DNA from: a bacterium
GTDB taxonomy: Bacteria; Electryoneota; RPQS01
Direction of reading: 5' to 3'
Length of the DNA stretch: 64,000 nucleotides
Assembly: GCA_013360195.1 (NCBI GenBank)
Contig: JABWCQ010000002.1
Span: 374,932 to 438,931, forward strand
The translations under genes were made by a program, and so were the position numbers. The notes under the pieces are model-generated. The model worked only from the letters and a program-made list of their open reading frames with translations. It was not told the origin of the DNA and did not search any database. Numbering within the stretch: position 1 is the first letter of the stretch; each line of letters begins with the position of its first letter. This document shows, piece by piece, positions 34,978-63,186 of the stretch.

Positions 34978-36210
34978 CTAATTCTTGGCCATCTCAGCCG
35001 GGATAACCCTTGGTGTCACAAAAACCAAGATTTCCGACTTGTCAGAGGTCTCGACCTCATAGTCGAACAGGCGTCCAAACAATGGAATCGCGTGCAACAG
35101 CGGCACCCTCCGGTTCAGCTTGCCTTCCTTGGAACGAATTACACCGCCGATGACAACAGTCTCGCCATCCTTGACCAGCAATGTGGTCTTGACTTCTGAG
35201 GTCAGGATGATGATTCCGCCCGCAACAGTCGCTTCGCCGGACAAATCGGCTACTTCCGGATTCAGCGTCATCAGGACTTCGTTGTCAGGGTTGATATGCG
35301 GTGTGACGTTTAACTTCACGGCCACATCGTAAAATTCCGTGACGATATTGCCGGACTCGTCAATTCTGTTAATCGGAATTCTCTTGCCCGATGTGATCTG
35401 AGCGGACTCATTGTCGTTTATGAGTACGGACGGCTGCGAAAGCACTTCCGCTGCATTGTCCTCCTCAAGCGCACTTAAAGTGGCGTTGATGTCCACTCCG
35501 TTATGCAATTTTCCAAATGTAAACGAACCAGTGGGATTAACTACTCCAAGATCGACGCTTGCGCCTGCTTGCGTGTTAGATAGCGGATTATTGAGATTTC
35601 CCACCCCCCAGGCTACACCAAGCTCTCTGCTGCGTGAAGCGTCAACCTGTACTATCTTCGCCTCCACCAGGACCTGCGAGGTCGGTTGATCAAGGTTCTC
35701 TACCAACATATCCATGGACGAAATGACATTGGGGATATCCGTGACAATAAGCGTGTTTGCGCGGGTGTCCGACTCCATTTTCCCTCGTTCACTAAGCAGC
35801 TTTGACAGAGTCTTCTTCAGGGTCTCTGCTCGAGCATACTTCACTTTGTAGATGTTCGTCTGAAGCGCTTCCAACTTCTCTGCGCTGGCGATGTCTTTAT
35901 GAGTCGTGACTCGAATAACACCTTTCTCCTCCACGGCCACAAAGTCGTTGATGCGAAGGACGTTGTCGAGAGCCTCGCGCCAAGGCACGTTGTTCAGGAG
36001 AACCGTCACGGGACCTGTTACTTCAGAGCCGGCGACAATATTTGTGCCTGAGAATTCTGCAATCGAGCGCAGTACGGTTCTGATATCCGCCTGCTCGACA
36101 TTCATGGATATTCGCCGTTCGTATCCCGCGTCCCTTGTACTTTGAGCCAACAACGGTGAGCTTGCCGTCATCGACATCAGAATGAGTATGATCCAAATGC
36201 GCTGCATCAT
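34978..36210 (-). CDS. pilQ: Type IV pilus secretin PilQ (short form)
   Basis: 410 residues, shorter than most PilQ proteins (600-750) and similar to HofQ: the N-terminal AMIN domains are missing. Signal peptide (1-22), STN/N0 domain ('MNVEQADIRTVLRSIAEFSG', about 35-100), one N1-type domain ('YKVKYARAETLKKTLSKLLS'), and the secretin domain (about 190-405) with 'VLSQPSVLINDNESAQITSGK' and the closing signature 'VPLLHAIPLFGRLFDYE'. It forms the outer-membrane pore through which the pilus emerges. Last gene of the pilMN-lipoprotein-pilO-pilP-pilQ series. Confidence 0.95.
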   Translation of the reverse strand: MMQRIWIILILMSMTASSPLLAQSTRDAGYERRISMNVEQADIRTVLRSIAEFSGTNIVAGSEVTGPVTVLLNNVPWREALDNVLRINDFVAVEEKGVIRVTTHKDIASAEKLEALQTNIYKVKYARAETLKKTLSKLLSERGKMESDTRANTLIVTDIPNVISSMDMLVENLDQPTSQVLVEAKIVQVDASRSRELGVAWGVGNLNNPLSNTQAGASVDLGVVNPTGSFTFGKLHNGVDINATLSALEEDNAAEVLSQPSVLINDNESAQITSGKRIPINRIDESGNIVTEFYDVAVKLNVTPHINPDNEVLMTLNPEVADLSGEATVAGGIIILTSEVKTTLLVKDGETVVIGGVIRSKEGKLNRRVPLLHAIPLFGRLFDYEVETSDKSEILVFVTPRVIPAEMAKN

Positions 36211-36247
36211 TGCACCTTTCGAATTTTATGCCGGAATACTGCCGGAC

Positions 36248-36829
36248 CTATGATCCTTGAACCTTCAGGGTAATTCTCGCGTAATCACCGAATTCAGTTA
36301 CTTCGAAGACAGCTTCGGTTTGTCCTACATACAGAACTTTGCCGCTGTATACACTGTCGCCTTCTCGAAGGAAGAAACTCTTCCCGTCCTTGTCACGAAC
36401 CATTGCCAGGTACTTCCCGTCGGACCACACTACACCGGTAAGGATCGCATCTTCGAGCCGAAGCAGGTCCGTCTTAACCTCGCCTTCCTTCTTCTCATCA
36501 TTCACAAGCGCACGAAACGGATCACGGAGGTCCGTCGCCAGATAATATACTGGCTCATGCCGCTTGAATATGGTCGTTTCAAGTTTTACCCTTCGGGTAC
36601 CACCATTGCTTCGTGTCTCAACTTCAGTAGGCAGGACACCCAGCGAGTCCAATCCTTCCGTTGCAGTAGTCAGGGTCTCGCCTTCTCTGGGAAGAAAATC
36701 CTCTTGCTGTGCCGGCCGCGGCTCGCTCGGAGCGAGCTTTTTCCGCTTAACTGGATTGTCCGCCTCCTCTGCAATCGCAACCGTGACGCAAAAGGTCATT
36801 ACTAACGTAAGAATGCCCGTTCTCATCAT
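36248..36829 (-). CDS. pilP: PilP-like pilus assembly protein
   Basis: 193 residues. Signal sequence ('GILTLVMTFCVTVAIAEE') without a lipobox cysteine, a low-complexity Pro/Glu linker, and a C-terminal beta domain with 'DLRDPFRALV' and 'LTGVVWSDGKYLAMVRDKDGK', the pattern of PilP/HofP. PilP links PilO-PilN to PilQ in the periplasm. The usual PilP lipobox is absent, so it may be soluble. ATG overlaps the pilO stop by 4 bases. Confidence 0.8.
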   Translation of the reverse strand: MMRTGILTLVMTFCVTVAIAEEADNPVKRKKLAPSEPRPAQQEDFLPREGETLTTATEGLDSLGVLPTEVETRSNGGTRRVKLETTIFKRHEPVYYLATDLRDPFRALVNDEKKEGEVKTDLLRLEDAILTGVVWSDGKYLAMVRDKDGKSFFLREGDSVYSGKVLYVGQTEAVFEVTEFGDYARITLKVQGS

Positions 36830-37464
36830 GCGTCCTCCTCGACGTTCTTCTTGCGCTTGCCCTTCTTATCGTCTTCCTTCGGCGTAACTTGCACGGGTGA
36901 GCCTAGTTCCTTGAAGACGTAAATTGTCGCCATGAACTCGGCCTCCACGGTGTTCGGACTTCTCCCTTTACTCGGTCGATACGCATTCAACTTTAGATTG
37001 CGCACATTCACAATTCGCTCCAAGCCGGCAATACTGGAAATGAATCTGCCTAAGTTGTGGTACTGTGAAAGCGTCTTGATTTGAATCGGGTACTCCCAGT
37101 AATAGGGTTGCTCCACGGGATCCAACGGCCGGAACAGGAGGAAGTTTACATTTCGCTTGCTGCCTTCTTCTGAAATGCTCTTGAGAAGCGCATCCATTTC
37201 CTGCTGTGTTGGCAGCAGCTCGATCGCGACTTCCCAGCTTTCCATAAGCCGTGCATAGTCTTCCTGCACAGTCTGGAAATTCGCTGCAACGCGCTTTCCT
37301 TTCGTCAGCATCTCTTGCTCTTCGGCAATGCTCTTCTCGAGCCGTGCAGCAAGGTCCTTCCGCGGTGTGTACACAAAATTTGAGTAGGCATACACAGCGC
37401 CGAATAGCAGAAAAACTACAATCAGCAGTTTCTGCGTGCTCGGGCTTCGGAGGTTGATAGACAT
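36826..37464 (-). CDS. pilO: PilO-like pilus assembly protein
   Basis: 212 residues. One N-terminal membrane helix ('LLIVVFLLFGAVYAYSNFVY'), a coiled coil ('LAARLEKSIAEEQEMLTKGK') and a ferredoxin-like domain ('NVNFLLFRPLDPVEQPYYWEYPIQI', 'YHNLGRFISSIAGLERIVNV'). This is the PilO layout: inner-membrane alignment complex with PilN. The lysine-rich C-terminus is unusual. Followed at once by pilP. Confidence 0.88.
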   Translation of the reverse strand: MSINLRSPSTQKLLIVVFLLFGAVYAYSNFVYTPRKDLAARLEKSIAEEQEMLTKGKRVAANFQTVQEDYARLMESWEVAIELLPTQQEMDALLKSISEEGSKRNVNFLLFRPLDPVEQPYYWEYPIQIKTLSQYHNLGRFISSIAGLERIVNVRNLKLNAYRPSKGRSPNTVEAEFMATIYVFKELGSPVQVTPKEDDKKGKRKKNVEEDA

Positions 37465-37476
37465 TTATGTAGTCCT

Positions 37477-37878
37477 TTAGTTCAGATAAAGCGGCGGCAT
37501 CAGGAAATGGGAACCCGGCGAAAGGGTGATTCCGCCGGAACCGCCGTAGGATCTGTCGTCGTAGAAATACTGCACAAAAGCGTCGCCGACATAGAGAAAT
37601 TCTCCGCTCTCAGGGTCTGAACCCAGAAAAATGTAGGCTTCAAAGTAGCCGTTTTCGTCCGTCTCAAACCATCTGTCCGGCCCAAGATACGGATTCTCTG
37701 CCTCCGGATCAGCCTCGACAATAACCCGAACGCCACGGACTCCCGTCGGATCCGCGTGTGACAAATAGACATACCCTGAAATCTTTGCCGAACTGTTGTC
37801 TTCGTCAATGTCTTTGTCGCAAGACACGGCAAACAAGCCTGCAAACAGGATAACGCCCGTAATGATGATGCTCCGCAT
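37477..37878 (-). CDS. Lipoprotein with carboxypeptidase-regulatory-like fold in the pil operon
   Basis: 133 residues from ATG 37878, which puts the lipobox 'LFAVSC' at the right distance. The mature part ('KISGYVYLSHADPTGVRGVRVIVEADPEAENPY...FETDENGYFEAYIFLG') fits a CarboxypepD-regulatory/transthyretin-like beta-sandwich. It sits between pilMN and pilO, where no lipoprotein is expected (PilP is usually the lipoprotein). It might replace the missing lipid anchor of PilP or act as a pilotin for PilQ; both are guesses from position. Confidence 0.65.
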   Translation of the reverse strand: MRSIIITGVILFAGLFAVSCDKDIDEDNSSAKISGYVYLSHADPTGVRGVRVIVEADPEAENPYLGPDRWFETDENGYFEAYIFLGSDPESGEFLYVGDAFVQYFYDDRSYGGSGGITLSPGSHFLMPPLYLN

Positions 37879-37906
37879 GGAACCTCCCGTCATATCTATA
37901 TACAAT

Positions 37907-39628
37907 TTATTTTTTTCCGCTTTCCCGCTTGGCTTCGTCCAAAGCCTTGTTCTTCTCTTTCACCGCCTCAGCGCCTTTCTTCAAGAGATTCTCCTTCTTG
38001 GGCTTTACTGTCTGCATTTCAATTTCAGGCAGCGTCACTTGCAGAGTGAAATCCGTGACCTCTGTCTCTGCAATTTTGTTGATCTGCGTAACGAGCAGGT
38101 CAACACCTTTCACACGCGACTCCTGCAGCAGAGCGGTCATGAACTCAGCTACTTTTGTGTTCGAACTGGTGACTCCGGAGATATGAATTCCCGCTCCACC
38201 CGGAGTAGGTGATTCCTTGACCTCCGTAAGCCACGTCAGCGAAGGTAAACGCCTTGCCAGCATCTCAAGCACTTCGACTCTGGCGAATCTGTTCCGATCG
38301 AGCTCACGAATAACGTCAATTCGCTCGGACACGTCCGCGCGCTTCACAGTTAAATCCTCGACGACCGCAATCTTATCGCGGTACAAATCAGTTTCCGAAC
38401 GAATAGCCTCGAGCTTTGCCTCGAGTGCCGATATCCTGTTTTGTTGACTCAGATGCACAATGGTCATGCCAAGCAGAACGGCCGACACTCCCATGATTGG
38501 AACAACAGCTTTAGCGCCTAAGTAGTTCGCCCTCTTGCTTTCCGGTCGGTCCTCTCGGTTGATCAAGTTGAATCCGGGATGATTGCCTCCCATAGACCGA
38601 AGGGCTAATCCTACTGCACATGCATATCCCGCACCTGATCCGTCGGATGGAGCTTCGCTGCCCTTGTCACTCTCAACCATTCGACGGAATGGGTTGACGA
38701 CATCTACCTCGAGACCAAACCTTCGTCTCATTGCCGGTTGAAGGAACGGAAGCTCAGCGCCTCCGCCGCAGAGCAAGAGCTTGGATATTGGCTTCTCGGC
38801 AAGTACTCCCAGATACTCGGGCAGGCCTCGCTCAATCTGTTCCGCCAATCGCTCGCTTACGGATCGCGCAACGGCATCGAGAGCTTCTTGCTCTTCCTCG
38901 TTCAGAGAGTGCTTTGACAGCAGACTTAACGCCTTGTCGAAACCGAACCCGCAACGGCGGATCAATCCTTCTACATAAGTTTTGCCGCCAATAGGAACAC
39001 TGCGACTCGTTTCGAACTGTGACATGTCATACAGCATCACCTCCGTGCTCTGAAAGCCGATGTGAAGAACGCCGATGACGCCCTCCTCATCCAAGTATCC
39101 GGCTTCGGTCAAGGCCGCCTGTATGGCAAAAGGCGCGGCCTCAACCAGTTTGGGCTTCATACCGGCCCAGAACATCGGCTCCACGGCGTCAAACACGACT
39201 TCATTCTTAGCGGCAACAAGCAACACATCCATTCGCCCGCTGTCCACGTCCTGCTGCAGACGCGCGTAATCCAGCGATACTTGGCTAATGCTGAACGGCA
39301 AGTTGGCGTCTGCTTCGTACTCAATCGCACCGCGAAGCTCCTGGTCCGACATGTCGTCAGTGGTAATCTTCTTGATCATCAATTGACGGCCGCCAATCGC
39401 GAGTGCAACATCTTTGCCTTTTAGGCCGTTGTCCTTTACCAGGTGGCTGAGAGCTTCCGTGACAACGATGTTGTCCATCAGAGCGCCGTCTACGATTGCA
39501 TCTTGCGGAAGATCCACGCAGGCTAACTTGTCCAATGCCACACTGTCACCGACACTCTTGAGTACAGCCAGGCGCATGCGCTTGCTGCCCACATCAATAC
39601 CGATTCCAATCTTGTTTCTCTTCGCCAT
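37907..39628 (-). CDS. pilM: PilM-PilN fusion protein
   Basis: 573 residues from ATG 39628 ('MAKRNKIGIGIDVGSKRMRL'). Residues 1 to about 345 are the actin-like PilM with nucleotide motifs 'GIGIDVGSKRMRLAV' and 'KLLLCGGGAELPFLQPAM'. From about residue 352 it reads as PilN: an N-terminal 'GFNLINREDRP' peptide (the part that docks into PilM when the proteins are separate), a membrane helix ('VVPIMGVSAVLLGMTIVHL'), a coiled coil and a ferredoxin-like periplasmic domain. The lysine-rich tail follows. The normal pilM and pilN genes are thus one chain spanning cytoplasm and periplasm. No stop or frameshift is seen at the junction. Confidence 0.9.
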   Translation of the reverse strand: MAKRNKIGIGIDVGSKRMRLAVLKSVGDSVALDKLACVDLPQDAIVDGALMDNIVVTEALSHLVKDNGLKGKDVALAIGGRQLMIKKITTDDMSDQELRGAIEYEADANLPFSISQVSLDYARLQQDVDSGRMDVLLVAAKNEVVFDAVEPMFWAGMKPKLVEAAPFAIQAALTEAGYLDEEGVIGVLHIGFQSTEVMLYDMSQFETSRSVPIGGKTYVEGLIRRCGFGFDKALSLLSKHSLNEEEQEALDAVARSVSERLAEQIERGLPEYLGVLAEKPISKLLLCGGGAELPFLQPAMRRRFGLEVDVVNPFRRMVESDKGSEAPSDGSGAGYACAVGLALRSMGGNHPGFNLINREDRPESKRANYLGAKAVVPIMGVSAVLLGMTIVHLSQQNRISALEAKLEAIRSETDLYRDKIAVVEDLTVKRADVSERIDVIRELDRNRFARVEVLEMLARRLPSLTWLTEVKESPTPGGAGIHISGVTSSNTKVAEFMTALLQESRVKGVDLLVTQINKIAETEVTDFTLQVTLPEIEMQTVKPKKENLLKKGAEAVKEKNKALDEAKRESGKK

Positions 39629-39659
39629 GGCTTGCCCTATTCTTAACGGTAACAGTTTG

Positions 39660-40778
39660 CTAGATTGAAACCGCCGCTTCGGCGGCATTGTCTCGTCCAA
39701 ACACAATACTACTGCGCGGAAACATAACCGTAAAACGCAGGCCGCGCTCGTCCAGCGGCTCCGCAGTTATTCCTCCGCCCATGGAATTTGCCAGAAGTCG
39801 TGCGACTTCCAAATCGAATTTGCTGCCTGAGCTAACTGTCTCTTCGGTATTGAGCACGCGATTTGCGCTCAATAGCCATTCCGCTTGCTCAGGAGTTATT
39901 GCCGGACCCGAGTCCTCAATAACGACTTCGATGTATTCTAGCGAATCGCTGAGGCTTAATTTGATCTCACCTGCATGAGTTACCCTCAGCATACAAAACT
40001 CAATCAGGTTCTCAACAATACGAGTCACCGCAAGAGGCTGACCGTAGAAGCTCAACTCTGAATCGGGCCTTTGAAGCGATAGCTTTACGCTCCTGCGGAC
40101 CGCTTCTGACTGCAAGCCGTGCATCCCTTCAATAATCGCGTCCCAAGGATCAAAAAGTTCCTGTTCAGCCCGAATCTCTCCGTTACCTCGTCCGTAGAGC
40201 AAATTCTCAATTCCCCGACTCATTGCGTCCACTTCATCGGCGATGATTCTGACAAAACGGCTGCGCTTTTCCGCGGGCATGTCATCGAGCTTGTGCAGCG
40301 AATACACATAGCCCTTGACAAGCCCCAGCGACGCTCTTACGGAATATTCAAGAGCCGACTCACGTGCATCTATGGAACTCCAGAGCTTCTCTTCAATGGC
40401 GAACTCTTCCGAAACATCGCGCCCGATTCCAATGATAAGCCCGCGGTCACCGTCATCCTGCAGTGGTGCTTCATTGACGTCGAACACCTTTAAGTCACCA
40501 CGCTTGGTTTTGAATCGAATCGTCGAGCGCATCGGCTTCCGGAACTGGGTTATCGCAGCCCACGTGCGCAAGGCGGCTTGCCTGTACTCTTCACTCATCA
40601 AGCCAAGCAATGCAGCAGGCCCGGCAGAGTCCCTTGACAAACCGCTCTCCGTCCAGAACTTGTCATTTCCTTCACGGATACTGCCTGACTTGTCCACCAC
40701 GTAGATAATGTCAGGTGCCCAGCGAGCAAGTCCCTCGCAAAGCGAGAATGTATCTTTATCTTTTTGATCAGTCATCAT
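39660..40778 (-). CDS. PAS-containing, degenerate histidine-kinase-like protein
   Basis: 372 residues from ATG 40778, overlapping the receiver gene by 11 bases. Residues about 15-125 form a PAS domain ('ARWAPDIIYVVDKSGSIREGN', 'GIGRDVSEE'). The dimerisation helix reads 'ALEYSVRASLGLVKGY', where the usual 'SHELRTPL' has no histidine. The ATPase-like region keeps 'VTRIVENLIEFC' in place of the N-box, 'EDSGPAITPEQ' for G1 and 'GSKFDLEVARLLANSMGGG' for G2; several nucleotide-binding residues are changed. No membrane helix, so soluble. It is probably a pseudokinase or a scaffold/phosphatase-type partner of the adjacent receiver. Confidence 0.8.
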   Translation of the reverse strand: MMTDQKDKDTFSLCEGLARWAPDIIYVVDKSGSIREGNDKFWTESGLSRDSAGPAALLGLMSEEYRQAALRTWAAITQFRKPMRSTIRFKTKRGDLKVFDVNEAPLQDDGDRGLIIGIGRDVSEEFAIEEKLWSSIDARESALEYSVRASLGLVKGYVYSLHKLDDMPAEKRSRFVRIIADEVDAMSRGIENLLYGRGNGEIRAEQELFDPWDAIIEGMHGLQSEAVRRSVKLSLQRPDSELSFYGQPLAVTRIVENLIEFCMLRVTHAGEIKLSLSDSLEYIEVVIEDSGPAITPEQAEWLLSANRVLNTEETVSSGSKFDLEVARLLANSMGGGITAEPLDERGLRFTVMFPRSSIVFGRDNAAEAAVSI

Positions 40779-41160
40779 ACTTTTCGACGCGAAGCTTTCC
40801 ACTCTTCACCAACAACGTTTCAATTGAATCGGTCAGTTCACGAACTGTAAAAGGCTTATAAAGCTTATTGCTGTTGCTTGGAAGCCTGTGGTGTCCAACA
40901 CCGGTCCAAGCGCTCATGAATACAATCGGAATGTCTGCGTACATGTGATCAAGCCGAATTGAACCCGCAAGATCAATTCCACTGATGCTCCCGATTAGAA
41001 TATCGATAACCAAAGCATCGGGCTTGAACTCATTGAGTGCAGTAATGAACTGATCAGGCTTGGTACAAGACTTGACCTCAAATCCGTGATCTTCTAACAT
41101 CATTGCGAGCAAGTCAAGGTATCTGGCATCATCATCTATCATCAAGACCTTGCAACTCAT
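40768..41160 (-). CDS. Single-domain response regulator
   Basis: 130 residues, receiver domain only. Acidic pocket D9-D11 ('MIDDDAR'), phospho-acceptor D53 ('ALVIDILIGSISGID'), conserved T/S ('FMSAWTG') and lysine in 'LYKPFTVREL'. The short tail 'LRVEKYDD' has no output domain. It lies between the MshEN/ATPase gene and the degenerate kinase and overlaps the latter, so they form a pair. A CheY-like output protein acting on the pilus motor is plausible from location. Confidence 0.88.
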   Translation of the reverse strand: MSCKVLMIDDDARYLDLLAMMLEDHGFEVKSCTKPDQFITALNEFKPDALVIDILIGSISGIDLAGSIRLDHMYADIPIVFMSAWTGVGHHRLPSNSNKLYKPFTVRELTDSIETLLVKSGKLRVEKYDD

Positions 41161-41186: not shown

Positions 41187-42344
41187 CTACTTAATCTCAA
41201 GGACGAAGTTGCGTACTGCACTTATGCATACGTCATCATCATTGAGTCTGTCAATAATTTCGATAGCTGCTGAACAGTTCTTTCCCTGCGAGGCGTTCAA
41301 GACCATTTTCTTCAGACTGTCTCGGGAGGGCTTTCCAAGTATGACCTCCGTTCCATTGCCAAACAGCTCCTTGAGTGACACGGAACTTGGTCCGGCAATG
41401 TAGGCTTCATCGGTCATGGTAAGTGCGACAACGCCACCCTTTTTCAGCATTACATTAATGAGATTCTCAAGCTCGCGCTCACACAAGCTGGAGCTGTACA
41501 AATCTGCGACATCGTCGATCAGGACGAGATCCCGGTCGCGAAGGTCAAACCGAAATGCCTCGACGGTACCCGCTATGTAATGACTTGCCAAACTCTCCGC
41601 AAACTGAGCCCCGGTACAATAAAGCCCCCTGGTCGTCGGTTCATTGGAGGAGACGTAGTTTCTCACCGCCTTGAGAATATGCGATTTACCGCAACCTTTT
41701 GGTCCGACAAATAGAATCGGTGATTTGCTGCATTCGGATTGCCTGGACGCGATTTGTTTGGCAATCTCACGGCCTTTTACGATTCCGTCATGCTCAATCA
41801 AAGTGTCAAAAGTCAAGCGCCACGCCATTGGAATCCCCCACGCCGGCTGGAATGGAACGGCGGGCATGGCGGTTCCTGCATTGACCGTCGAGATGTCGGT
41901 CGAATCTCCATAGTGAATGAACTGCGCGTGCTCAAGGGCCGACTGCTCAGCCGCAAGCACGACAATATCAAAATCAGTTACCGCGCGAAGCGCTTCTCTG
42001 ACTGCCTCAAAATCTCCTCCGCCATAGGCAACTACCAGCGTGTTGCCCGTTCGTCTCACAGGCAGGCATCGATTCGCAAGTGCCACACGCTTGGGAACAT
42101 GCCGCACCGCATTCGGATCAATCTGTATCTGTTCAAGTTTAACTGTTCGCAATTCGTTGACTGAATGGATAATTCTTTCCATTTCCCGATCACTGAGCAA
42201 CTCAAGCTGAACAAGCGCTTCTGCAAGCCCAATCGCCGTGCTGCTCTGCAACTCGCGGACAACTCCCAAATCAGCCTCTGTGACAATTTCCGTTTCCAGG
42301 AGTCTTGCTGCAAGTGTCTCGTCAAATTGCTGGCTCTTACTCAT
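41187..42344 (-). CDS. MshEN domain fused to a DnaA-like AAA+ ATPase
   Basis: 385 residues. About 10-150: an MshEN (GspE/PilB N-terminal) domain, 'RLLETEIVTEADLGVVRELQ...GLAEALVQLELLSDREMERI' and 'VPKRVALANRCLPVRRTGNTLVVAYGG'. MshEN domains in assembly ATPases can bind cyclic di-GMP. About 175-385: an AAA+ domain whose entry 'RLTFDTLIEHDGIVKGREIA', Walker A 'VGPKGCGKSHIL' and Walker B 'RDLVLIDDVADL' resemble DnaA/Hda/DnaC rather than pilus ATPases. No DNA-binding DnaA domain IV is present. It overlaps the upstream DUF4388 gene by 8 bases. I know no named family with this pairing; a nucleotide-sensing ATPase for pilus control is inferred. Confidence 0.8.
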   Translation of the reverse strand: MSKSQQFDETLAARLLETEIVTEADLGVVRELQSSTAIGLAEALVQLELLSDREMERIIHSVNELRTVKLEQIQIDPNAVRHVPKRVALANRCLPVRRTGNTLVVAYGGGDFEAVREALRAVTDFDIVVLAAEQSALEHAQFIHYGDSTDISTVNAGTAMPAVPFQPAWGIPMAWRLTFDTLIEHDGIVKGREIAKQIASRQSECSKSPILFVGPKGCGKSHILKAVRNYVSSNEPTTRGLYCTGAQFAESLASHYIAGTVEAFRFDLRDRDLVLIDDVADLYSSSLCERELENLINVMLKKGGVVALTMTDEAYIAGPSSVSLKELFGNGTEVILGKPSRDSLKKMVLNASQGKNCSAAIEIIDRLNDDDVCISAVRNFVLEIK

Positions 42345-42975
42345 TCTCAGTTCTTCCCTGCGCTTCAGTCAACAGTTCCTTCCAAAGTTCATTCCCTGCC
42401 CACATGAGTTCGGCCGTTGTTATATTCTCGTCGCCACGCACGATAAGCTGCTGCACTCCCAGCTTATGGATGTATGTCGACCCCATCGGATCTCTCTCCA
42501 CAACAATCCGGTCTCGTGTGCCCTCTGACATGCTAATGTCAGGCGTTTGACGCGGATCATGAGCACTAAGTCCGGTTTCGTAGCTGCGCAATCCGGAACT
42601 CTTCTTCCTGAGCGCGGCAAACTTCGCCTGCAATCTTGAGTGTAATGGCACAGGAACATACATCCTCTGGATGCTCCTGCTTCCGACAACCGAACGCACC
42701 GCTTTCAGAAGCTTCCCGGTGTCAACTCGAATGGACCTTTCAGGCGGCAATGTACCTTCGGACTCTTCAACAATTTCACTTATGCTTCCGCATGACCCTT
42801 CCAGCGCCTTCCAGCCGGTTTCGCCGGTGCTGCTTGTGGCATGCGCCAGGTTTCCGCGAACAAACCAGAGCTGAATGGCGGACTGTCCGTCATATACGGT
42901 CAACGCTCCGGTGTAATTGCCATTGCTCTTTTGTCCGACGATGTCAAGTAAAGAGGGCTGCGCAGAAGTTCTCAT
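42337..42975 (-). CDS. DUF4388 (PATAN-like) domain protein
   Basis: 212 residues. The N-terminal 95 residues match the DUF4388/PATAN pattern: 'SLLDIVGQKSNGNYTGALTVY' then 'IQLWFVRGNLAHATSSTGETGWKALE'. Such domains occur in signalling proteins of gliding and twitching bacteria and often link to receivers or Roadblock proteins. The C-terminal half (about 120-212) is not recognised. Its start overlaps the pilU-like stop by 4 bases and its end overlaps the MshEN/ATPase gene by 8, so the three are tightly coupled. Confidence 0.7.
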   Translation of the reverse strand: MRTSAQPSLLDIVGQKSNGNYTGALTVYDGQSAIQLWFVRGNLAHATSSTGETGWKALEGSCGSISEIVEESEGTLPPERSIRVDTGKLLKAVRSVVGSRSIQRMYVPVPLHSRLQAKFAALRKKSSGLRSYETGLSAHDPRQTPDISMSEGTRDRIVVERDPMGSTYIHKLGVQQLIVRGDENITTAELMWAGNELWKELLTEAQGRTENE

Positions 42976-44069
42976 TGTACCTCCGCCAGCCGCGATCCGG
43001 ACGACTTGATGCCGCGTACGGCCATTTCAAGGTCATTGGGATTGTTCGCATTCTCTATCGCAGTTTCAAACGATATGATGCCCTGTTTATACAGGCTAAG
43101 AATGGACTGATCGAATGACTGCATTCCGTGCGTTCCCTGGTCATCTTCAATCAGGCCGTGCACCAGGTGCATTTTTTCCGGTACCGTGAGACATTCACGA
43201 ACAGCGGCCGTATTGACAAGAATTTCACAAAGCGGCACACGACCTCTGCTGTCCTTCCTGCTCACTAGTCTTTGCGAAATCACAGCTTGCAATGAACCTG
43301 CAAGCATTGTACGAATTTGAGTTTGCTCATTCAATGGAAAGAAGGAGATGATACGGTTGACAGCCTCTACCGCATTCAGCGTGTGCAACGACGTCAGTAC
43401 AAGGTGCCCCGTTTCCGCTGCCTGCAGAGCGATCTTCATTGTCATCTGGTCGCGGATCTCACCGACCATGATGATGTCCGGGTCCTCACGCAAGGCATGT
43501 GTCAACGCGGCCAGAAATGACTCCGTATCGATCAAGACTTCGCGTTGGGCTATCAGAGACTTCTTGTTTGAGAATACGTACTCTATTGGATCTTCGATGG
43601 TCAGAATGTTTACACTTCGCGTCTGATTGATATGTTCTATCATCGACGCCATCGTTGTAGACTTGCCGGATCCGGTGGCACCGGTCAGGAGGATGATGCC
43701 ACGCTTGTTTGAGCACATCTTTTCAATCGCGGTCGGCAGGCCAAGTTCTTTAAAACCGGGAATTACCGTCTTGATTGCGCGAAATGCGAGTGCAGGCGTC
43801 CCCTTTTGAAAATAGGCGTTGACACGCACTCGGCCATGCCCGGGGACAGTAAGCGCCATATCAAGTTCCTTGTCGTGCAAGAATCTTTCGAGCTGTCCTG
43901 AGGTCAGACACTCGTTCAAGAGTGCGCTCATCTCCCGCTCAGCGACTGGTTCCGGTCTCGTACCGAAAAGATTACCGTCAATCCTGAGCACAGGCACACT
44001 TCCAACTCTCAGGTGGAGGTCAGACGCCTTCTTTGTAAACAGTAATTCCAGCAGGCCCTTGAGTTCCAT
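42972..44069 (-). CDS. pilU: PilT/PilU-type retraction ATPase
   Basis: 365 residues. Walker A 'LTGATGSGKSTTMASM', Asp box 'ILTIEDPIEY', Walker B 'IIMVGEIRDQMT' and His box 'GHLVLTSLHTLNAVEA' are intact. The C-terminal 'AVRECLTVPEKMHLVHGLIE' replaces PilT's AIRNLIRE, and 'GMQSFDQSILSLYKQGIISF' is typical of PilU, so it is assigned as the second, PilU-like retraction motor. The other PilT lies at 59444. Its neighbours are regulatory genes rather than the pilB-pilC series. Confidence 0.88.
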   Translation of the reverse strand: MELKGLLELLFTKKASDLHLRVGSVPVLRIDGNLFGTRPEPVAEREMSALLNECLTSGQLERFLHDKELDMALTVPGHGRVRVNAYFQKGTPALAFRAIKTVIPGFKELGLPTAIEKMCSNKRGIILLTGATGSGKSTTMASMIEHINQTRSVNILTIEDPIEYVFSNKKSLIAQREVLIDTESFLAALTHALREDPDIIMVGEIRDQMTMKIALQAAETGHLVLTSLHTLNAVEAVNRIISFFPLNEQTQIRTMLAGSLQAVISQRLVSRKDSRGRVPLCEILVNTAAVRECLTVPEKMHLVHGLIEDDQGTHGMQSFDQSILSLYKQGIISFETAIENANNPNDLEMAVRGIKSSGSRLAEVQ

Positions 44070-48884: not shown

Positions 48885-51800
48885 CTATTGATTGATCTCG
48901 TCGTCACGCGACGGCGGCGCGGCATTCGGTGGGAACGATGTCAGGAGTGAGAACGTTTCCGTGAATGCATAGGCAGCGCCGTACTCGGCCTCGACATTTA
49001 TGAGCACCGGAGTCGCCGCAGGATCGTCGTTTGTTGTCAGGTTGTTAAAGAAGCTGACGGTATACGTCGTGTCACCTGGACATCCTAGAGTGATTGAGCT
49101 TGGGTAGACGCTACCTGAGCTTGCACTGAACGAAATCGTCGTGCCGGCCACCATTGGCCAGTAGTTGTAGTCGTAAAGTGAGAGCCTGATCAGCGCGTTT
49201 TCGCCAATGTGCAGTTCACGCTCGTTGGGATCACCGTTAACGGTTACTTCACGAATGTTAAGAATGGGCTGCGAATAGTCAAACACAACGTTTGTCGTCG
49301 CCCATACCCACACGCTGTCACCGGTTTCATCGACACCGGCCGTCCGGCAAAGCACTTTGGCCATTCCGTTCTGATCCGGAACGTCGCTGCAGAGAATGGT
49401 CGTGCCTAAGTTCGGATCGGTAAGTGTGTTGAGCCACCGGTTGATTGTGGGCAGCGGATTGCCGCTGTACAGTCTTACGCGCGCAAAGCCGGCCGAATCC
49501 GTGTAACCCGTCGCGGTTGTAATGACACCGCCTGACGTCGTGAAGTAAACGGCTGTCCCTGGCGTTACCGGATTGTTGTAACGGTCGCCGACGAGACATA
49601 CGATCTCAACGCTCTCCCCGACAACGTCCATTCCGAACATGTTGCACGGCGAGGCGCCGATTGCCATATGGCTTGATGCACATCCGTCCGCAATGTTCTC
49701 AATGAACGCTGGGCCGGCATAAATAAGAATTTCGGTGGAAACCGCACTAATGCCCGAGCATACAGCCCTGACTCTCGCAGTTCCGGAAACTGTACCGCTG
49801 TTGTATGCAACCGTTGCCTGACCGTTTATCGTCGGAATCGCACCGGTGCTCGAAAGGAAGTCTCCGCCGCCTGGCGAATTGTTGATGTTAAAGTATACTT
49901 CGGTGCCGTCGAGCACGGGGTTGTTGTTGGCATCCCGGACTGTCGCAGTGATGAGTAACGTCTCGTTTCTGCCGCTGCCCCGAACGCCTACCGAATTAGG
50001 TGTGAAGGATAGCTGAATGCTGTTCGGGTTTCCTGGCAGCAGGTACAACGTGTAGTTTGCGGAGGCGGCCCCGGCAGTTGCGGTCACGATCGCAGTTCCC
50101 GTCTGCGATGAACTGAACGGCACGGTGGCGTCTCCATTGGCGTTTGTTACTCTGCTCGACGTGATATTGCCTATTGTTGTTGTGAACTGTACTTCAATAT
50201 TGGCCAACGGATGTCCGACAGCATCGGTGACATGCGCGGTAATACTGTCGGTTTGTATACCGTCAGCAGGCAAACTGTCAATCAGTGCGGACAAGGTGAT
50301 TATCGACGGATCACCAACGCGATAGATAACTTGCACGCTATCCCGCACGCTCTGGTTCTCTTCTGCCCAAGCTGCCACCCAAAACGTATCCGGCGTCGCA
50401 CTTGAAATCAGCGTATTCGTCGCAACTCCTCCGACCGTTGTTCGCAAATTCTCCAGCGTTCCCGATTGAGGCGGAATACTGAATCTGACTTGCGTTCCAT
50501 TCGGAACGGGATTTCCATTCTGATCTGTCACGTTTGCCGTGAGAATCGATTGCGAACTATTGTCGGCGAATAAGATCGTCGGCGACGCCGTCAGCGACAA
50601 TGTGGTCGGCGTGGACGCTGCAAAAGCTACATTTGCCTGCGCGGTGAGAGTTTGGCCGTAAGTTGCCGTTACTGTCGCTGTCCCGGTCTGAGTCGAGGCC
50701 TGCAGATTGACCGTCGCAACACCGCTTTCGTCCGTGGTGGCGCTTGCAGGTATGGTTCCTCTGCTCGTCCCGAAAAAGACCGTGGCTTCAGGAATTGCAA
50801 TTAGCGAAGTTGTTTCGTAGACGTGGACGCTTATCTCTGACGTTGAATTTCCATCTGCGATCACCATTTCGGGAACCGCATTTGCGGCAACGGTCACCCC
50901 GCGTAAGGTGATTGCCGTCGTTCCTTGGGCTGTGCCGGAGCTTGCCAGAATGTTCGATAAAAGGTTTGTGCTTCTTCCCGGCGGTGTGAATAAGAGCGTC
51001 GCTACACCATTGCTGTTCGTTGTTGTAATGGCCGGGGCAAAGGTGATTCCGGACGCGGTCCAAGTGACGTTCGCGTTCGCAAGCGGGACTCCCATCGCGT
51101 CATAAACCGTTGCACTGATCGGAAGAGAAGACAATCCGTCCGCGCGCACGGAGTTCGCTTGTGGCGACACTGACACTGATTGCGGGGTCGGAGCATACAT
51201 CGTCACTGCGACAGTATCAGCCAGTTGACTGCCCATGCCGCACACGATCATGGCATTCCCGCTAAGTGAGGATGCAACAAGATTTGCGGTCGCGATACCC
51301 GAAGCATTTGTTACGATGCTGTTAGGAATTGAACCAAGACTTGTTCCGAAACTCACACTGCGACCGGACACCGCGACCAGACTGGTGGTCTCGCGCACTT
51401 GTGCCTGAATTGTATTCGTCGAAACTCCGTTTGCAGGCATTGCATCATATTGTGAAGACGCTGTGATTGTCACACCGCGCAGACCGATCGAGATTGAATC
51501 TGATGCGGATTGAGAGGACACTCTTATCAAAGTCTGCGTGTCCGTCACGCGGCCTGTCGAGGTATAGGTATTAGCTGCATTTCCTTCGGCATCCGTGTAG
51601 CTTGTTCCTTGTGCCAAGCTGCCGGGACCGGTGATTGACCACACGATTGCCGTATTGGCGATCGGATTTCCACTCTGGTCAAGCAGCCTGCATGACAAAT
51701 TCGAGGTACTTTGACCGTCAGCGAGCAGCGAGCTGGCCGAAGCCGTCAAATCCAGTCCGGATGGCGATGGCGAGAATAGATTCAATTGCACTGTATCACG

Positions 51801-54800
51801 AAGCTGATTGCCGTACCGGACAATGATGCTTGCTTGACCGACCTCGTTTCCGGCCGTATAGACAAAAGTTGCGACACCAGATTCAGAGGTGACACCACTG
51901 GACGCTATGGAACCGAGTGAAGCGCCGCACTGAATCGTAGCCCCGGGAATAGCAATCGTGCTTGACGTTTCCCGTAGTGTCACGGTAATGTTGGCGGTCG
52001 CGGCACCGTTGGCAGGCAGCATCTCAACGTCACTGTAAGCGTTTAATGTCACTCCAAGCAGTGACAGAGTGTCTTGAACTGCGCTTCGTTCAATCGCGAC
52101 ATCAATTGGCGCCGTGAGGTCAAGCAAGGACGCGGGCGCCGTGAATGTTGACATCGCAATACCGTCTTGATCCGTCACTGCCGTTACCGGCGAGAACACA
52201 CCGTGCTCAATTGCCGTGAATGTGACAGTTGTTGACGGTACCGGCAATCCTCCTTCATCGAGGATAAGCGCGCTAACGACTGTCGAGGCCACGCCGTTGG
52301 CAAGCAACTCAGTGGTTCCCATTGTCAGCACGATTGTCTCAGCATCTGTATTCGTAAGCGGCAAAAACACGTGCGCGCGCAAAGTATCGCCGTAAGTGGC
52401 AGTAACTTGATCAGTACCGGATTCGTTACCGGCTTGATAAGTCGCGATTGCAATTCCGCTTTCATTTGTTTCGACAAATTGCTGGACGGAACCCAGCGTC
52501 GCCGCGAATCGCACAGGTGCGTTCACGACGGCCATGCCGCTTGACGTTTCACGTACGGTCGCACTGATGTCGGTGGTGGAAACGCCGTCGGCCGGCAAAC
52601 TTCCGGCTGCGGAATTCACCAACACCGTCACACCGCGCATTGTCACCGAATACGTGCCTTCTTCGCCATCCGATTCAGCCGTCACGAGCTGCGACGCGTC
52701 AGTAGATGAAGCACCGCTGAAGAAGTTCGCATGAACCTGCCCGCTCGAGTCGGTACGCGAAGTTAGGGGCTGCAGCCAGCCAATCCCGTCTTCAGCACTC
52801 CAGTTGACATTGCGGCCGCTGATCGGCAGACCGAATTCGTCTCGAACCGTTGCCGTCACCTGCGTAAAGGAGAGGCCGTCCGCAAGAATCGACGAGTTCG
52901 CGCTTGAGAGAACGATTCCTGCGATTTGCGGTGACGAGAACTGAACTTCTCCGTAACCGCTCGCAGTGCCGGTGGTTGCCACGATAGCACAATTGCCGAC
53001 TTGACGCGAGCTTGTCAAATTTGTTACGAAAATTCCTGAAGGATTTGTCAATCCTGATGCAGGCAGTAATGTACCAAGCGTGCTGGTTACGGTTACGGCA
53101 ACTCCGCCGCCGAGGGGATTGCCAAATGCGTCAAACACTTGACAAACAACTTGTGTACCTGAAACTCCGTCCGCCGGAATGTCCTCAGACTGTGGCGTCA
53201 CCTCAATGGTGGCAGCCGCGCCGGCAACATATGTCGCCGTCTGTTCAGCAATTAATCCATTCGTCTCTGCGGTAATCAGGTCATTGGATGCGGTCGTCGA
53301 GCTGATAAGCGTCGCAGTTGCATATCCATCGATTGTAACGGCATTGACAACGCTTGAAATGGGTGTTCCCCTTCGATCAGGACCGCGGCCGGCCTTAGGC
53401 AGCCCCGATACTCTGTCACTGAATCCGCGTGAAACTGCGTTGTCAAAAGTTGATCTCGACGTGTGACTGCCCTTGCCGTTATTCGTAAGAGTGCCGCCGA
53501 TGTCAAGTTGCCCCAGTTCAGATGTGAATGTAACGGTTGTGCCGTTTGAAACAGGACGGTTTTCCTGGTCAAGAACTTGCGCACGGAGAATTGCCGTGCT
53601 TTGACCGTCCGCAATCAACTGTCTTGGCGTAACGGAAAGAGTAATCTGTTCCGGTTCTGTTGCTTGAAGGTAAATTGAAGTACTTCCGGCAATGGTGCCA
53701 TTTAGAGCAGTCACAGTTGCATTGCCCGGGTTTAGCCCGGCTCGGAACACGACAGTCGCATATCCTTGCGCGTCTGTGGAGGCGGATTCGGTTATATACC
53801 CGTTGACGCTGCTGAACGCGACGATGGTACCGGGAAGCGCTGCGTTCCCATAGGTATCTCTCGCCAAAGCACGAATGACAGTCTCACTTGAATTATCCGC
53901 TGAAAGCGTATCCTGATCCCGGGTCAAGGTCAAAGACGCTAATGCACCGGGCATAACATCAATTTCGGTGTTGCCGGTTACGGTCCCGGTGGTCGCAGTA
54001 ATCGTGACGTGACCGGTCGTGACAGGTGCCCGGAACGTTGTCGTGGCAATTCCATTGACAGTCGTTACCGCTTGAGAAGCGAAGGAACCCATGTTCGCCG
54101 AAAACGTGACGATCACGTTGCTGCGCAGGTTTTGTCCGTCCTCGCCGATGACTCGTGCGCTGATGACGGACGAGTCAAGGCCTGCTGTCATCGAAGAAAG
54201 TGATGTGTTCACCTGAATCGATGAAGCCGCGTAGGGCTGCAAGAACTCGACAAAGACGGTATCGGAATTGTCATTGTATCTCGCAATCACCATGGACCGT
54301 CCGACCACTTCGGTCGAAGTCAGCGTCGCTAATGCAGTTCCGGTCTGTGCATCCGTAATTGCAGGTGAAGTGATGACACCATGAGAGGTCGAAAAGGACA
54401 CTTCGACCCCGCCGACTGGGTTGTTCTGCATGTTGCGTACGCGCGCCCGAATCTGTGTGGACGATGCCCCGTTGTCCGCGAACAGCGTATCTTCATCCGC
54501 CGTAACGCTCACCAAGCCGTTGAGCGTTGGTGCGCCGTCCGAAACGCGAATCTGGCGGGATTGCGCGGTCTGCATGCTCACCAGTTCTACATGAAGGGAT
54601 ACATTCCCCGTATCCTCGGGTGCCGTGTAAAGTGTTCGCGCGACGCCATAATTGTCTGTTTCAATCATGACGTCTGAGCCCGCTTCATCAAAGCTTCCGC
54701 GAGTAGCGGTGAAACGGATATTCTCGCCAGGCGCTGGCTCGTCTTGCTCATTTACTACTCGAGCTTCAACCCAAGCTGTACCAAGCGGGCTGATAGTCGG

Positions 54801-54953: not shown

Positions 54954-54972
54954 CACATGCACTCCTTGCGCT

Positions 54973-55953
54973 TTATCCACAATTGTAGCTTTTCAATTTA
55001 TATAACAGCGAGCGATGAGATATCTCCAGCAGTTTCGCCGCGCGTGTTCGGTTGTTTCCGGTAAGACGAAGTGCCCTCTTGATCAATTCGCTTTCGACCT
55101 CGGGAACCACTTTTGCCAATGCTTGCTTGATACTAAGTTCGTCTTCGGGAATTGTAAGGTTCACGTGCTCATTCACAGTCCGTCTCTTGGATCTGGGGAC
55201 TTGCAATTCCACTCTGCCCCCCGCCGACATGATGACGCTGCGCTCAACCACGTTCTGCAACTCTCGTACATTGCCCGGCCAGGAATAATTCAGAAGGTCC
55301 TGGATAACGGAGTCTTCAAATGGTTTTGCCCGCTCACTTGCTCCAAGTTCAACCAGAAAGTTCTGTACCAATGGTACAATGTCTTCTTTCCTTTCTCTAA
55401 GCGGCCTGACTTCGAGCGGTACAATATTCAGCCGGTAGAATAAGTCCTGTCTGAACCGTCCCTCCGCGACTGCTTTGTTGAGATCCTCTGATGTTGTCGC
55501 GACGATTCGTGCCAAGGACTTGCTCTCCGTCAGCGCCCCAAGTTGACGGTAGGTGCCTTCCTGCAGGACTCGCAGCAGCTTTGCTTGAGAAGCGAGCGGT
55601 ATTTCCCCAACCTCTTCCAACACAAGGGTGCCGTTGCTGGCCGCGGCGAAGTGCCCGGGCTTGTCCTTGACCGCACCGCTGAACGCGCCGCGGGTGTGTC
55701 CGAACAGTTCGGATTCAAAGAGTGTCGCCGGAAGCGCTGCACAATTGACGGAGACAAATGGATTATTCCTGTACGGACTGCATACATGAATTGCTTTCGC
55801 AATCAAATCTTTGCCTGTACCGGATTCGCCGCTTATCAGAACAGTCGTGTGAAAACTGGCAATGCGTTCAACCTTTTCCATAAGGTCTCGCATATGCGCC
55901 GATTCCGCCACGACGAACTTTCGTACTGTTTCAAAATCAAGTACTTTGGACAA
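54973..55953 (-). CDS. Sigma54-dependent activator without receiver domain
   Basis: 326 residues from a TTG preceded by GGAG at good spacing. There is no sensory or receiver domain: the AAA+ core begins almost at once. Walker A 'ISGESGTGKD', the sigma54 contact loop 'RGAFSGAVKDKPG' (GAFSGA in place of GAFTGA), Walker B 'GTLVLEEVGE' (normally LDE) and a Fis-type helix-turn-helix at the C-terminus ('TRAAKLLEISHRSLLYKL') are visible. The substitutions could alter ATPase or sigma54 contact. It lies under its own consensus -24/-12 promoter and directly precedes the giant Ig protein. Activity would depend on expression or on a partner protein. Confidence 0.9.
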   Translation of the reverse strand: MSKVLDFETVRKFVVAESAHMRDLMEKVERIASFHTTVLISGESGTGKDLIAKAIHVCSPYRNNPFVSVNCAALPATLFESELFGHTRGAFSGAVKDKPGHFAAASNGTLVLEEVGEIPLASQAKLLRVLQEGTYRQLGALTESKSLARIVATTSEDLNKAVAEGRFRQDLFYRLNIVPLEVRPLRERKEDIVPLVQNFLVELGASERAKPFEDSVIQDLLNYSWPGNVRELQNVVERSVIMSAGGRVELQVPRSKRRTVNEHVNLTIPEDELSIKQALAKVVPEVESELIKRALRLTGNNRTRAAKLLEISHRSLLYKLKSYNCG

Positions 55954-61488: not shown

Positions 61489-63186
61489 CTAATGCCCTTC
61501 ACCTGTGATTCTCAGCACTTCCTCAATGGTGGTAATGCCGTTCTTGAATTTTTCGCAAGCGTCCATGCGCAAAGTGAGCATGCCTTCCGCCACGGCCGCC
61601 GCTTCGATTTCGAACGTGTTTTTTCCGTCCAGAACCATTTCTCTGATTTTCGGAGTCATAGGCATCACTTCATATATACCTGTTCTGCCGCGATAGCCGC
61701 CTCCGTTGCACTCGGCGCAGCCGGATCCGTGATGGAACGTGTGGCCTTTCAGTTTTTCCGGGTCCAACCCGACTTCCCGTAATGCTTCCGGATGCACTTC
61801 CACCGGCACCTTGCACTTCTTGCAGATTTTACGGATCAGTCGCTGCGCCAAGACCAGATTCACCGAAGATGACACGAGAAACCTCTCAATTCCCATGTCA
61901 ATCATACGTGTCACTGTTGCGGCGGCTGAGTTCGTGTGCAGGGTTGACAATACCAGGTGGCCTGTCAAGGCGGCGCGCACCGCGATTGAACCGGTTTCAA
62001 GATCACGAATCTCACCAATCATGATGATGTCAGGGTCCTGACGCAGAAACGATTTCAGCGCTGACGCGAATGTCAACCCGACCTCTTCCTTGACTTGCAC
62101 CTGATTCAGTCCGGCGAAGTTATACTCGACAGGATCCTCCGCGGTCATGGTATTGACTGTAGGAGTATTCAGCTTTGAGAGCACGCTGTACAGAGTCGTC
62201 GTTTTACCCGAACCGGTCGGACCTGTCACAAGGATCAGTCCATGCGGCATTCTAATGGCTTTCTCGAAGTCGTTAAGCGCCTTCTCCGGAAAACCGAATG
62301 AGTTCAAATCAAGTGTCAAGTTCGACTTGTCCAGAATACGCATCACGATCTTTTCGCCGAAAAGAGTGGGCAGGGTCGAAACGCGCAAGTCGATTGCCTT
62401 TTCGCCGAGTTTCATCTTGATGTGTCCGTCTTGCGGGACGCGCCGTTCGGCAATGTTTAGTTTCGCCATGATTTTTATGCGCGAAACAATGGCAGCCTTC
62501 AGGTGATTCGGCGGCGACATCACTTCAATTAGTACACCGTCAATACGGAATCTCACGCGAAACTGCGTCTCGTACGGTTCAAGATGGATATCCGAAGCTT
62601 TTCGATTGACCGCGTCCGAGAGAATTCCATCCACCAATTTGACAACGGGAGCAGTCTCGACCTCTTCCTTCAGTCTGTCCAGTTCGGCATCGTTCGACTG
62701 CGTAACGACTTCTACGCCCGCATCCTCGCCCATGTCGGCCAGAATTTTGTTGAGCGTCCCCCCCATCTGGTAGTATCGCTCAATCGCCCGCAGGAATTGC
62801 GTTTCCGTGCAGACCGCCGGCTGAACGTTGAAACCGGTGATGAACTTGATATCTTCGAGTACGAAGTCAATGCTCGGGTCAACAAGCGCAACGCGCAAAG
62901 TTTTGCCAGCACGGCTGAGCGGCAGGACTTGGTACTTCTGAATGAAATCCTTCGAGAGTAGTTTCAGCACCGCTTCCGGCACGGTGACCTTCTCGAGGTC
63001 TACCAGCTCAAGGCTATAGTAATTGCTGATAAACTGCGCTATCTGCTCTTCGGAAATGACGCCAAGCTTCGTCAACTCGGTGATGACCGTGTTGCCGGAG
63101 TCTTTTTGACGTGACTTGAAGATCAGGAATTGTTCTTGCGAAATCAGCTCGTTGCTGATCAGCAGATTCGGCAGTCTCGAACTCAT
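61489..63186 (-). CDS. pilB: Type IV pilus extension ATPase PilB
   Basis: 565 residues. N-terminal MshEN domain ('LLISNELISQEQFLIFKSRQ', 'KYQVLPLSRAGKTLRVALVDP'), AAA+ core with Walker A 'LVTGPTGSGKTTTLYSVL', Asp box 'TMTAEDPVEY', Walker B 'IIMIGEIRDLETG' and His box 'GHLVLSTLHTNSAA', and a zinc-finger-like tetracysteine ('CKKC...CAEC'). It powers pilus extension. First gene of the operon pilB, cyclase-like, pilT, pilC, pilR, with a sigma54 promoter about 60 bases upstream of the predicted start. Confidence 0.96.
   Translation of the reverse strand: MSSRLPNLLISNELISQEQFLIFKSRQKDSGNTVITELTKLGVISEEQIAQFISNYYSLELVDLEKVTVPEAVLKLLSKDFIQKYQVLPLSRAGKTLRVALVDPSIDFVLEDIKFITGFNVQPAVCTETQFLRAIERYYQMGGTLNKILADMGEDAGVEVVTQSNDAELDRLKEEVETAPVVKLVDGILSDAVNRKASDIHLEPYETQFRVRFRIDGVLIEVMSPPNHLKAAIVSRIKIMAKLNIAERRVPQDGHIKMKLGEKAIDLRVSTLPTLFGEKIVMRILDKSNLTLDLNSFGFPEKALNDFEKAIRMPHGLILVTGPTGSGKTTTLYSVLSKLNTPTVNTMTAEDPVEYNFAGLNQVQVKEEVGLTFASALKSFLRQDPDIIMIGEIRDLETGSIAVRAALTGHLVLSTLHTNSAAATVTRMIDMGIERFLVSSSVNLVLAQRLIRKICKKCKVPVEVHPEALREVGLDPEKLKGHTFHHGSGCAECNGGGYRGRTGIYEVMPMTPKIREMVLDGKNTFEIEAAAVAEGMLTLRMDACEKFKNGITTIEEVLRITGEGH

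Follow-up and report, generated by a model that had tools for sequence, protein, structure and literature searches.

The N-terminal MshEN module (GSPII_N) of the ATPases PilB, GspE and MshE consists of a four-helix part (MshEN_N) and an alpha/beta part (MshEN_C) and is a high-affinity receptor of cyclic di-GMP (c-di-GMP), with two 24-residue motif units in which R, L, G and Q are critical; V. cholerae MshE carrying G11I no longer binds this messenger (PMC5013675). The N-domain of X. citri PilB does not have the c-di-GMP residues and binds PilZ instead, and in crystal structures of type II secretion system (T2SS) proteins the N1 (MshEN_C) domain of PilB homologues binds PilM homologues (PMC8389850). 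PilB docks in a socket of PilM, and the extension and retraction motors (PilB and PilT, respectively) compete for the stator (PMC8389850, PMC11656802). MshEN is also a portable module outside PilB, with fusions to REC, HD-GYP, CheA, CheX, cyclase and Ser/Thr kinase domains (Wang et al., 2016); a DnaA-type AAA+ domain is not among the fusions given in that main text.

Type IV pilus (T4P) motors are also the targets of PATAN-type regulators, which bind PilB1/PilC in Synechocystis (PMC12288463); the sections considered here describe the cyanobacterial proteins as response regulators and do not mention a DnaA-like AAA+ partner. PATAN genes have been found near some mglA genes (PMC4316618). On the side of the AAA+ proteins, the closest described systems are domain III of DnaA and the proteins Hda and DnaC/IstB, which comprise a single DnaA-family AAA+ domain without domain IV.

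The window (the whole stretch of 64,000 nucleotides analysed, positions 374,932 to 438,931 of contig JABWCQ010000002.1, assembly GCA_013360195.1, phylum Electryoneota) encodes a protein in which both modules are joined. Its parts, all on the minus strand, are as follows.

41187..42344 (-): MshEN-DnaA-type AAA+ fusion gene, ATG start, 385 aa (Pfam and NCBIfam matches; kept in the order)
42162..42335 (-): MshEN_N-like four-helix part, aa 4-61 (NCBIfam PilB alignment, motif scoring, model helices)
41904..42161 (-): MshEN_C part, aa 62-147, presumed PilM-docking domain (Pfam MshEN, 65-140)
41820..41903 (-): disordered linker, aa 148-175 (pLDDT <50 at 150-167 and 170-174)
41190..41819 (-): DnaA domain III-type AAA+ domain, aa 176-385, lid truncated, without domain IV (Bac_DnaA, Foldseek, DnaA alignment)
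41682..41705 (-): Walker A, GPKGCGKS, aa 214-221 (GxxGxGK[ST] in all order members)
41511..41528 (-): Walker B, LVLIDD, aa 273-278 (DD or DE in 8/11 order members)
41364..41366 (-): position of the DnaA arginine finger, here Leu327 (every DnaA compared has Arg at this site, none of the 11 order fusions does)

The initial annotation, made from the letters alone, had described an MshEN domain fused to a DnaA-like ATPase that has no DNA-binding tail, and both statements hold. In the domain-architecture and profile search that it had proposed, Pfam matched MshEN at aa 65-140 (E 3.9e-9, 36.8 bits against a gathering cut-off of 23.1) and Bac_DnaA at aa 176-309 (E 1.5e-18, 68 bits against a cut-off of 23), whereas neither the C-terminal DNA-binding domain of DnaA (domain IV) nor the T2SSE ATPase domain (PF00437) was matched by Pfam in the window protein. 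NCBIfam alignments place the PilB N-terminus at aa 11-151 and DnaA at aa 173-310, and a sequence search of the PDB leads from the first half to PilB/MshE and from the second to DnaA domain III. The AlphaFold2 model (mean pLDDT 79) contains two folded parts separated by a linker (150-174) that is mostly below 50; the helices of the MshEN_N part span residues 3-17, 23-36, 40-46 and 52-63. By Foldseek, the N-terminal part has the MshE fold (5htl) and the AAA+ part that of DnaA domain III (8bv3; TM 0.79 by target, 2.3 A over 211 columns). With no T2SSE domain present, the C-terminal part does not qualify as a PilB ATPase; the annotation had named this reading as one that would overturn its own, and the possibility of a misread PilB ATPase is ruled out by the DnaA-type assignment in Pfam and by Foldseek. 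A chance match or a misread open reading frame is likewise ruled out by conservation in 11 genomes together with both Pfam matches. Compared with PilB, GspE and MshE the fusion has no N2D-T2SSE ATPase, and compared with DnaA it has no domains I, II and IV.

Both Pfam families are matched by all 11 orthologues of the order (best E 4.6e-20 for MshEN and 2.4e-36 for Bac_DnaA). Mean pairwise identity within the order is highest in MshEN_C (57.9%, with 15 invariant columns of 86), followed by the AAA+ core (40.5%), MshEN_N (29.4%) and the linker (18.2%). One orthologue (G005, L035:7265-8983 (-)) carries an additional C-terminal starch-binding CBM_20 domain (E 4.9e-11) and is the only order member extended in this way.

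The AAA+ part shares with DnaA domain III, its best match in sequence and structure, the fold and the Walker A motif. The claim of intact Walker motifs is correct for Walker A and for the DD of Walker B in the window copy, while this copy has lost the DnaA arginine finger and has a truncated lid. Within the order, Walker B is broken in 3/11 members, so that nucleotide switching may not be universal; the sensor 2 Arg is retained in 3/11 and the C-terminal lid is truncated in three copies (window genus and G006). In contrast, finger, Walker B and sensor 2 are kept in the groups f31 and f123 and in several copies of f156 and of the phylum of genome G163. The protein scores 73 bits against the DnaA initiator equivalog TIGR00362 (cut-off 343.9) and 32.6 bits against Hda TIGR03420 (cut-off 194.8), being without domain IV and without the finger of the initiator. 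Its matches to Hda and DnaC/IstB are thus weaker than to DnaA; a simple pattern scan of the fusion found no Hda-type clamp-binding motif, and no transposase or helicase gene is a neighbour. In the helix that presumably contacts single-stranded DNA in DnaA, at the positions that we take to be the contacting Lys and Arg, the Lys occurs in 21/22 DnaA and in 1/11 order fusions; the Arg is present in 10/22 DnaA, and because it is variable even there its loss is not a strong argument against DNA binding. With Walker A intact in all order members and DD or DE in Walker B of 8/11, the AAA+ part may act as an ATP/ADP nucleotide switch.

The initial annotation had also suggested that MshEN reads a second messenger such as c-di-GMP, and this is not borne out here. 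The receptor criterion was two 24-residue motifs of the type RLGxx[LVI][LVI]xxG... with a 5-residue spacer. The window copy scores 12/22 motif positions, with R and G missing from both units; the motif-opening Arg is absent from both units in 11/11 order members, and the Gly of RLG is missing in both motifs in 9/11 (G012 retains it in motif I and G009 in motif II). None of the 11 order fusions passes the relaxed published motif, and NCBIfam NF053729 gives 14.6 against a cut-off of 38. A c-di-GMP receptor in the window lineage is ruled against by this motif test. The c-di-GMP motifs of the genome's own PilB are degenerate as well and read RLP. One GGDEF protein is encoded in the genome, thus c-di-GMP may exist in the cell, and 15-19 of the 22 positions are kept by most f31 and several f156 relatives.

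The genes surrounding the fusion, and the PilB gene of the same genome, are listed below.

61489..63186 (-): the genome's own PilB, with degenerate c-di-GMP motifs (sequence searches and motif scoring)
42972..44069 (-): PilT/PilU-family ATPase, upstream neighbour (TIGR01420, E 1.6e-131)
42337..42975 (-): DUF4388 (PATAN-like) protein, cassette partner (8/8 aligned orthologues match PF14332, best E 9.6e-10)
40768..41160 (-): single-receiver response regulator, cassette partner (Response_reg, E 4.4e-14)
39660..40802 (-): PAS-HATPase sensor-kinase-like protein, cassette partner (phosphoacceptor His changed to Tyr/Phe)
37907..39706 (-): PilM-PilN fusion, whose PilM part is the proposed docking partner (PilM_2, E 6.9e-51; PilN, E 1.3e-11)
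37477-37905 (-): predicted lipoprotein of 142 aa, encoded between pilMN and pilO (without a Pfam match)
34978..37464 (-): pilO, pilP and pilQ (sequence and operon order, conserved synteny)

Throughout the order (11/11 copies) the fusion sits in the same T4P operon, between pilT and pilMNOPQ. In those genomes with contigs of sufficient length, the order of genes is pilin-like genes, TPR protein, pilT, DUF4388 protein, fusion, receiver, PAS/HATPase protein, pilMN, lipoprotein, pilO, pilP and pilQ; a recognised DUF4388 gene is missing in G012 and G002 and the receiver in G001. The first nucleotides of the fusion gene (start at 42344) overlap the 3' end of the DUF4388-like gene that precedes it, whose product in the window scores below the gathering cut-off of PF14332; we take DUF4388 to be the PATAN domain. 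The receiver protein keeps its Asp and Lys sites in nine aligned orthologues. In the PAS-HATPase protein the H-box His is Tyr or Phe in 9/9 aligned orthologues, while the HisKA helix is otherwise conserved; judged by its residues, the protein (39660-40802) is a conserved pseudo-kinase. The DUF4388 partner, the receiver protein and the T4P context are shared with Synechocystis PixG and its relatives.

The four cassette proteins are about 20-40% identical, compared with about 40-86% for most neighbours, and thus diverge much faster. In G011, a member of the sister family that is 96% complete, the same operon runs from pilT directly into pilMN, and because it does so without the cassette, the latter is accessory and not structural. 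Two further conserved products were observed in this region: the 142-aa lipoprotein, kept in the same position across the order as well as in G163's phylum, and a protein of 2031 aa (48885-54980 (-)) encoded upstream of the minor pilin-like genes.

Fusions were counted as matches spanning the whole profile, DnaA matching the second half only, and groups were counted as separate phyla by the phylum setting of the search. The fusion occurs in 10/11 genomes of the family (the genome without it is 56% complete) and in 1/2 genomes of the sister family; a search of the remaining 26 genomes of the phylum found none. The wider set of 386 genomes added seven carriers, all outside the phylum; the fusion is present in 29/120 genomes of the phylum of G163 and in 3/3 genomes of each of the phyla of G208 (f31), G290 (f123) and G324 (f156). 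A profile search of contigs returned mostly ordinary DnaA, together with Gemmatimonadota proteins that have two AAA+ domains. In total about 50 full-length relatives in five groups are available, i.e., at least four groups besides that of the window. The genome of the window also has a canonical dnaA, next to dnaN on another contig, and PilB as a separate gene. Literature searches for MshEN with DnaA, for MglA with DnaA and DUF4388 and for DnaA-like proteins with T4P found no description of the architecture or of a role. That the initial annotation did not know of such an architecture is understandable, yet the protein does not stand alone. Both domains are known, and what is new is their combination and its recurrent link to the pilus.

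This link takes several forms outside the phylum. In the phylum of G163 the usual order is TPR protein, fusion, pilMN, lipoprotein, pilO, pilP and pilQ, with the fusion adjoining pilMN. The f31 copies are direct neighbours of pilB-pilT, and two-component genes and pilC lie further out; at L187, L190 and L223 the fusion is beside pilB-pilT and pilC. In f123 it occurs together with genes for a roadblock protein and an Arf/Ras-like GTPase (MglB/MglA type) as well as two DUF4388 genes, and L186 and L189 show it in an mglB/mglA/DUF4388 cluster. In f156 tandem paralogues, one of 1993 aa, precede pilB. In the 1993-aa protein (L188:9942-15923 (+), with tandem paralogues upstream), MshEN and a DnaA-type AAA+ domain are accompanied by long helical repeats, and another DnaA-type AAA+ match lies close to the C-terminus. 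Two DnaA-type AAA+ domains without MshEN are found in the Gemmatimonadota proteins of L050, L052, L066, L073, L083 and L096, and several of these double-AAA proteins adjoin an MglA-like GTPase, DUF4388-like proteins and che-type genes. At L239:4477-5550 (-) and L240:5686-6744 (+) a DnaA-type AAA+ protein without MshEN lies beside two tandem PilB-type ATPases; these two represent a separate, more recent duplication, since they are nested within the DnaA of their own group.

In the AAA+ tree, built without two misaligned rows, all fusions and the Gemmatimonadota double-AAA proteins split from DnaA with support 95/89, which suggests an old fusion family. As a positive control, DnaA-like proteins of f31 and f123 without MshEN fall inside DnaA beside the copy of their own group. 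Origin from the DnaA of the own lineage is rejected for f31 (p 0.0002), for the finger-bearing copies of the phylum of G163 (p 0.005) and for f123 (p 0.035); for the window order, which has long branches, it is not rejected at p 0.093, and descent of the window lineage from the DnaA of its own genome is disfavoured by the tree. In the MshEN tree 28 fusions, that of the window included, branch apart from PilB (100/99), while a branch separating every fusion from PilB has weak support (80/39). An origin from IstB and a transposon was discarded on the weak score and the lack of transposase context. These trees point to one old fusion event as likely. Because a number of copies in other groups keep the finger, Walker B and sensor 2, and some also most of the c-di-GMP motif, the window lineage has the appearance of a degenerate offshoot from a family that is better preserved elsewhere.

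That the fusion serves the type IV pilus at all is very probable. As to how, the preferred reading is that it is a nucleotide-binding regulatory scaffold docked on PilM, a mechanism to which a probability of roughly 55% is assigned. By domain homology and gene order, MshEN_C of the fusion would dock on PilM and so place a DnaA-type nucleotide switch at the base of the pilus. The fusion would receive input from the DUF4388 protein, the receiver and the histidine-less kinase, and the ATP/ADP occupancy of the switch together with this input would determine if PilB or PilT is able to engage. In the window lineage a scaffold or an occupancy switch would be expected, and not a hydrolysing ring motor or a second-messenger sensor, because the arginine finger and the c-di-GMP motif are missing. 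The place in the pil operon, the adjacency to pilMN in another phylum and to pilB-pilT or mglB/mglA genes elsewhere, the accessory nature of the cassette, the conservation of MshEN_C, the T2SS structures with PilM homologues, the binding of PilB1/PilC by PATAN-type regulators, and the presence of Walker A in all members with the finger lost in 11/11 speak for this mechanism; against it, Walker B is broken in 3/11 order members and the f123 copies adjoin mglA/mglB and not pil structural genes. Conservation of MshEN_C could also reflect another partner (PilZ-like or DUF4388) instead of PilM.

The same f123 copies, with their mglB-, mglA- and two DUF4388-type genes, would suit a polar positioning scaffold with a role like that of SgmX or FrzS of Myxococcus, which would mark the pole and recruit PilB with input from the DUF4388 and receiver proteins. 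This explanation overlaps with docking on PilM and puts localisation first; it is also consistent with the Gemmatimonadota DnaA-AAA protein found with an MglA-like GTPase, DUF4388-like and che-type genes, and with DUF4388 in the window cassette. However, no mglA or mglB was seen adjoining that cassette, and the explanation is considered unlikely.

Somewhat less probable still is an ATP-driven factor that remodels PilB/PilT hexamers by unfolding or exchanging them. The AAA+ fold, the intact Walker A, the tight operon link with the motors and the Walker B, finger and sensor 2 kept by many relatives in other groups would agree with such an activity, but in the order the finger is lost in 11/11 members, the sensor 2 Arg remains in 3/11 and Walker B is lost in 3/11. 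Moreover, DnaA-type AAA+ proteins act as switches and are not known as processive unfoldases. The proposal of the initial annotation that the protein acts in assembly or removal of a pilus regulator is accordingly divided: pilus regulation is pointed to by the pil operon, whereas the lost finger weakens the case for ATP-driven remodelling.

It is improbable that MshEN binds c-di-GMP and controls an ATP-dependent action of the AAA+ domain: the module is a known receptor (PMC5013675), the cell has its GGDEF protein and f31/f156 relatives keep 15-19/22 positions, but the motif counts and the NF053729 score of the window order given above oppose it. Slightly less credible is a decaying relic without function, as fast evolution, the truncated lid and the lost catalytic residues might suggest, since the open reading frame and its operon place are intact in 11 genomes of the order and MshEN_C is on average 58% identical. 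The least probable is an Hda-like or DnaA-titrating factor coupling surface contact to replication, for although DnaA is the nearest solved structure to the AAA+ core, the missing clamp-binding motif (by the simple pattern scan) and domain IV, the helix Lys in 1/11 and the pil operon context throughout the order oppose it.

Returning to the scaffold docked on PilM, a broader and rather doubtful scenario is that the nucleotide-switched, self-assembling AAA+ core of DnaA was recruited once, long ago, for T4P control; f31 and some f156 proteins, which keep the finger, sensor 2 and most of the motif, would assemble on the PilM stator in dependence on c-di-GMP and ATP and thereby gate the exchange of motors, and in the window lineage the docking part would have been kept and the remainder would have become a passive scaffold.

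The finding touches two questions, namely how PilB or PilT is chosen on a single PilM/PilC base and what the N-domain of PilB does when c-di-GMP is not bound by it. The family represents a natural dissection of the motor, in which the docking domain of PilB is kept and the motor replaced by a DnaA-type switch within the same operon; and in several groups the ATPase core of the replication initiator is apparently used outside replication.
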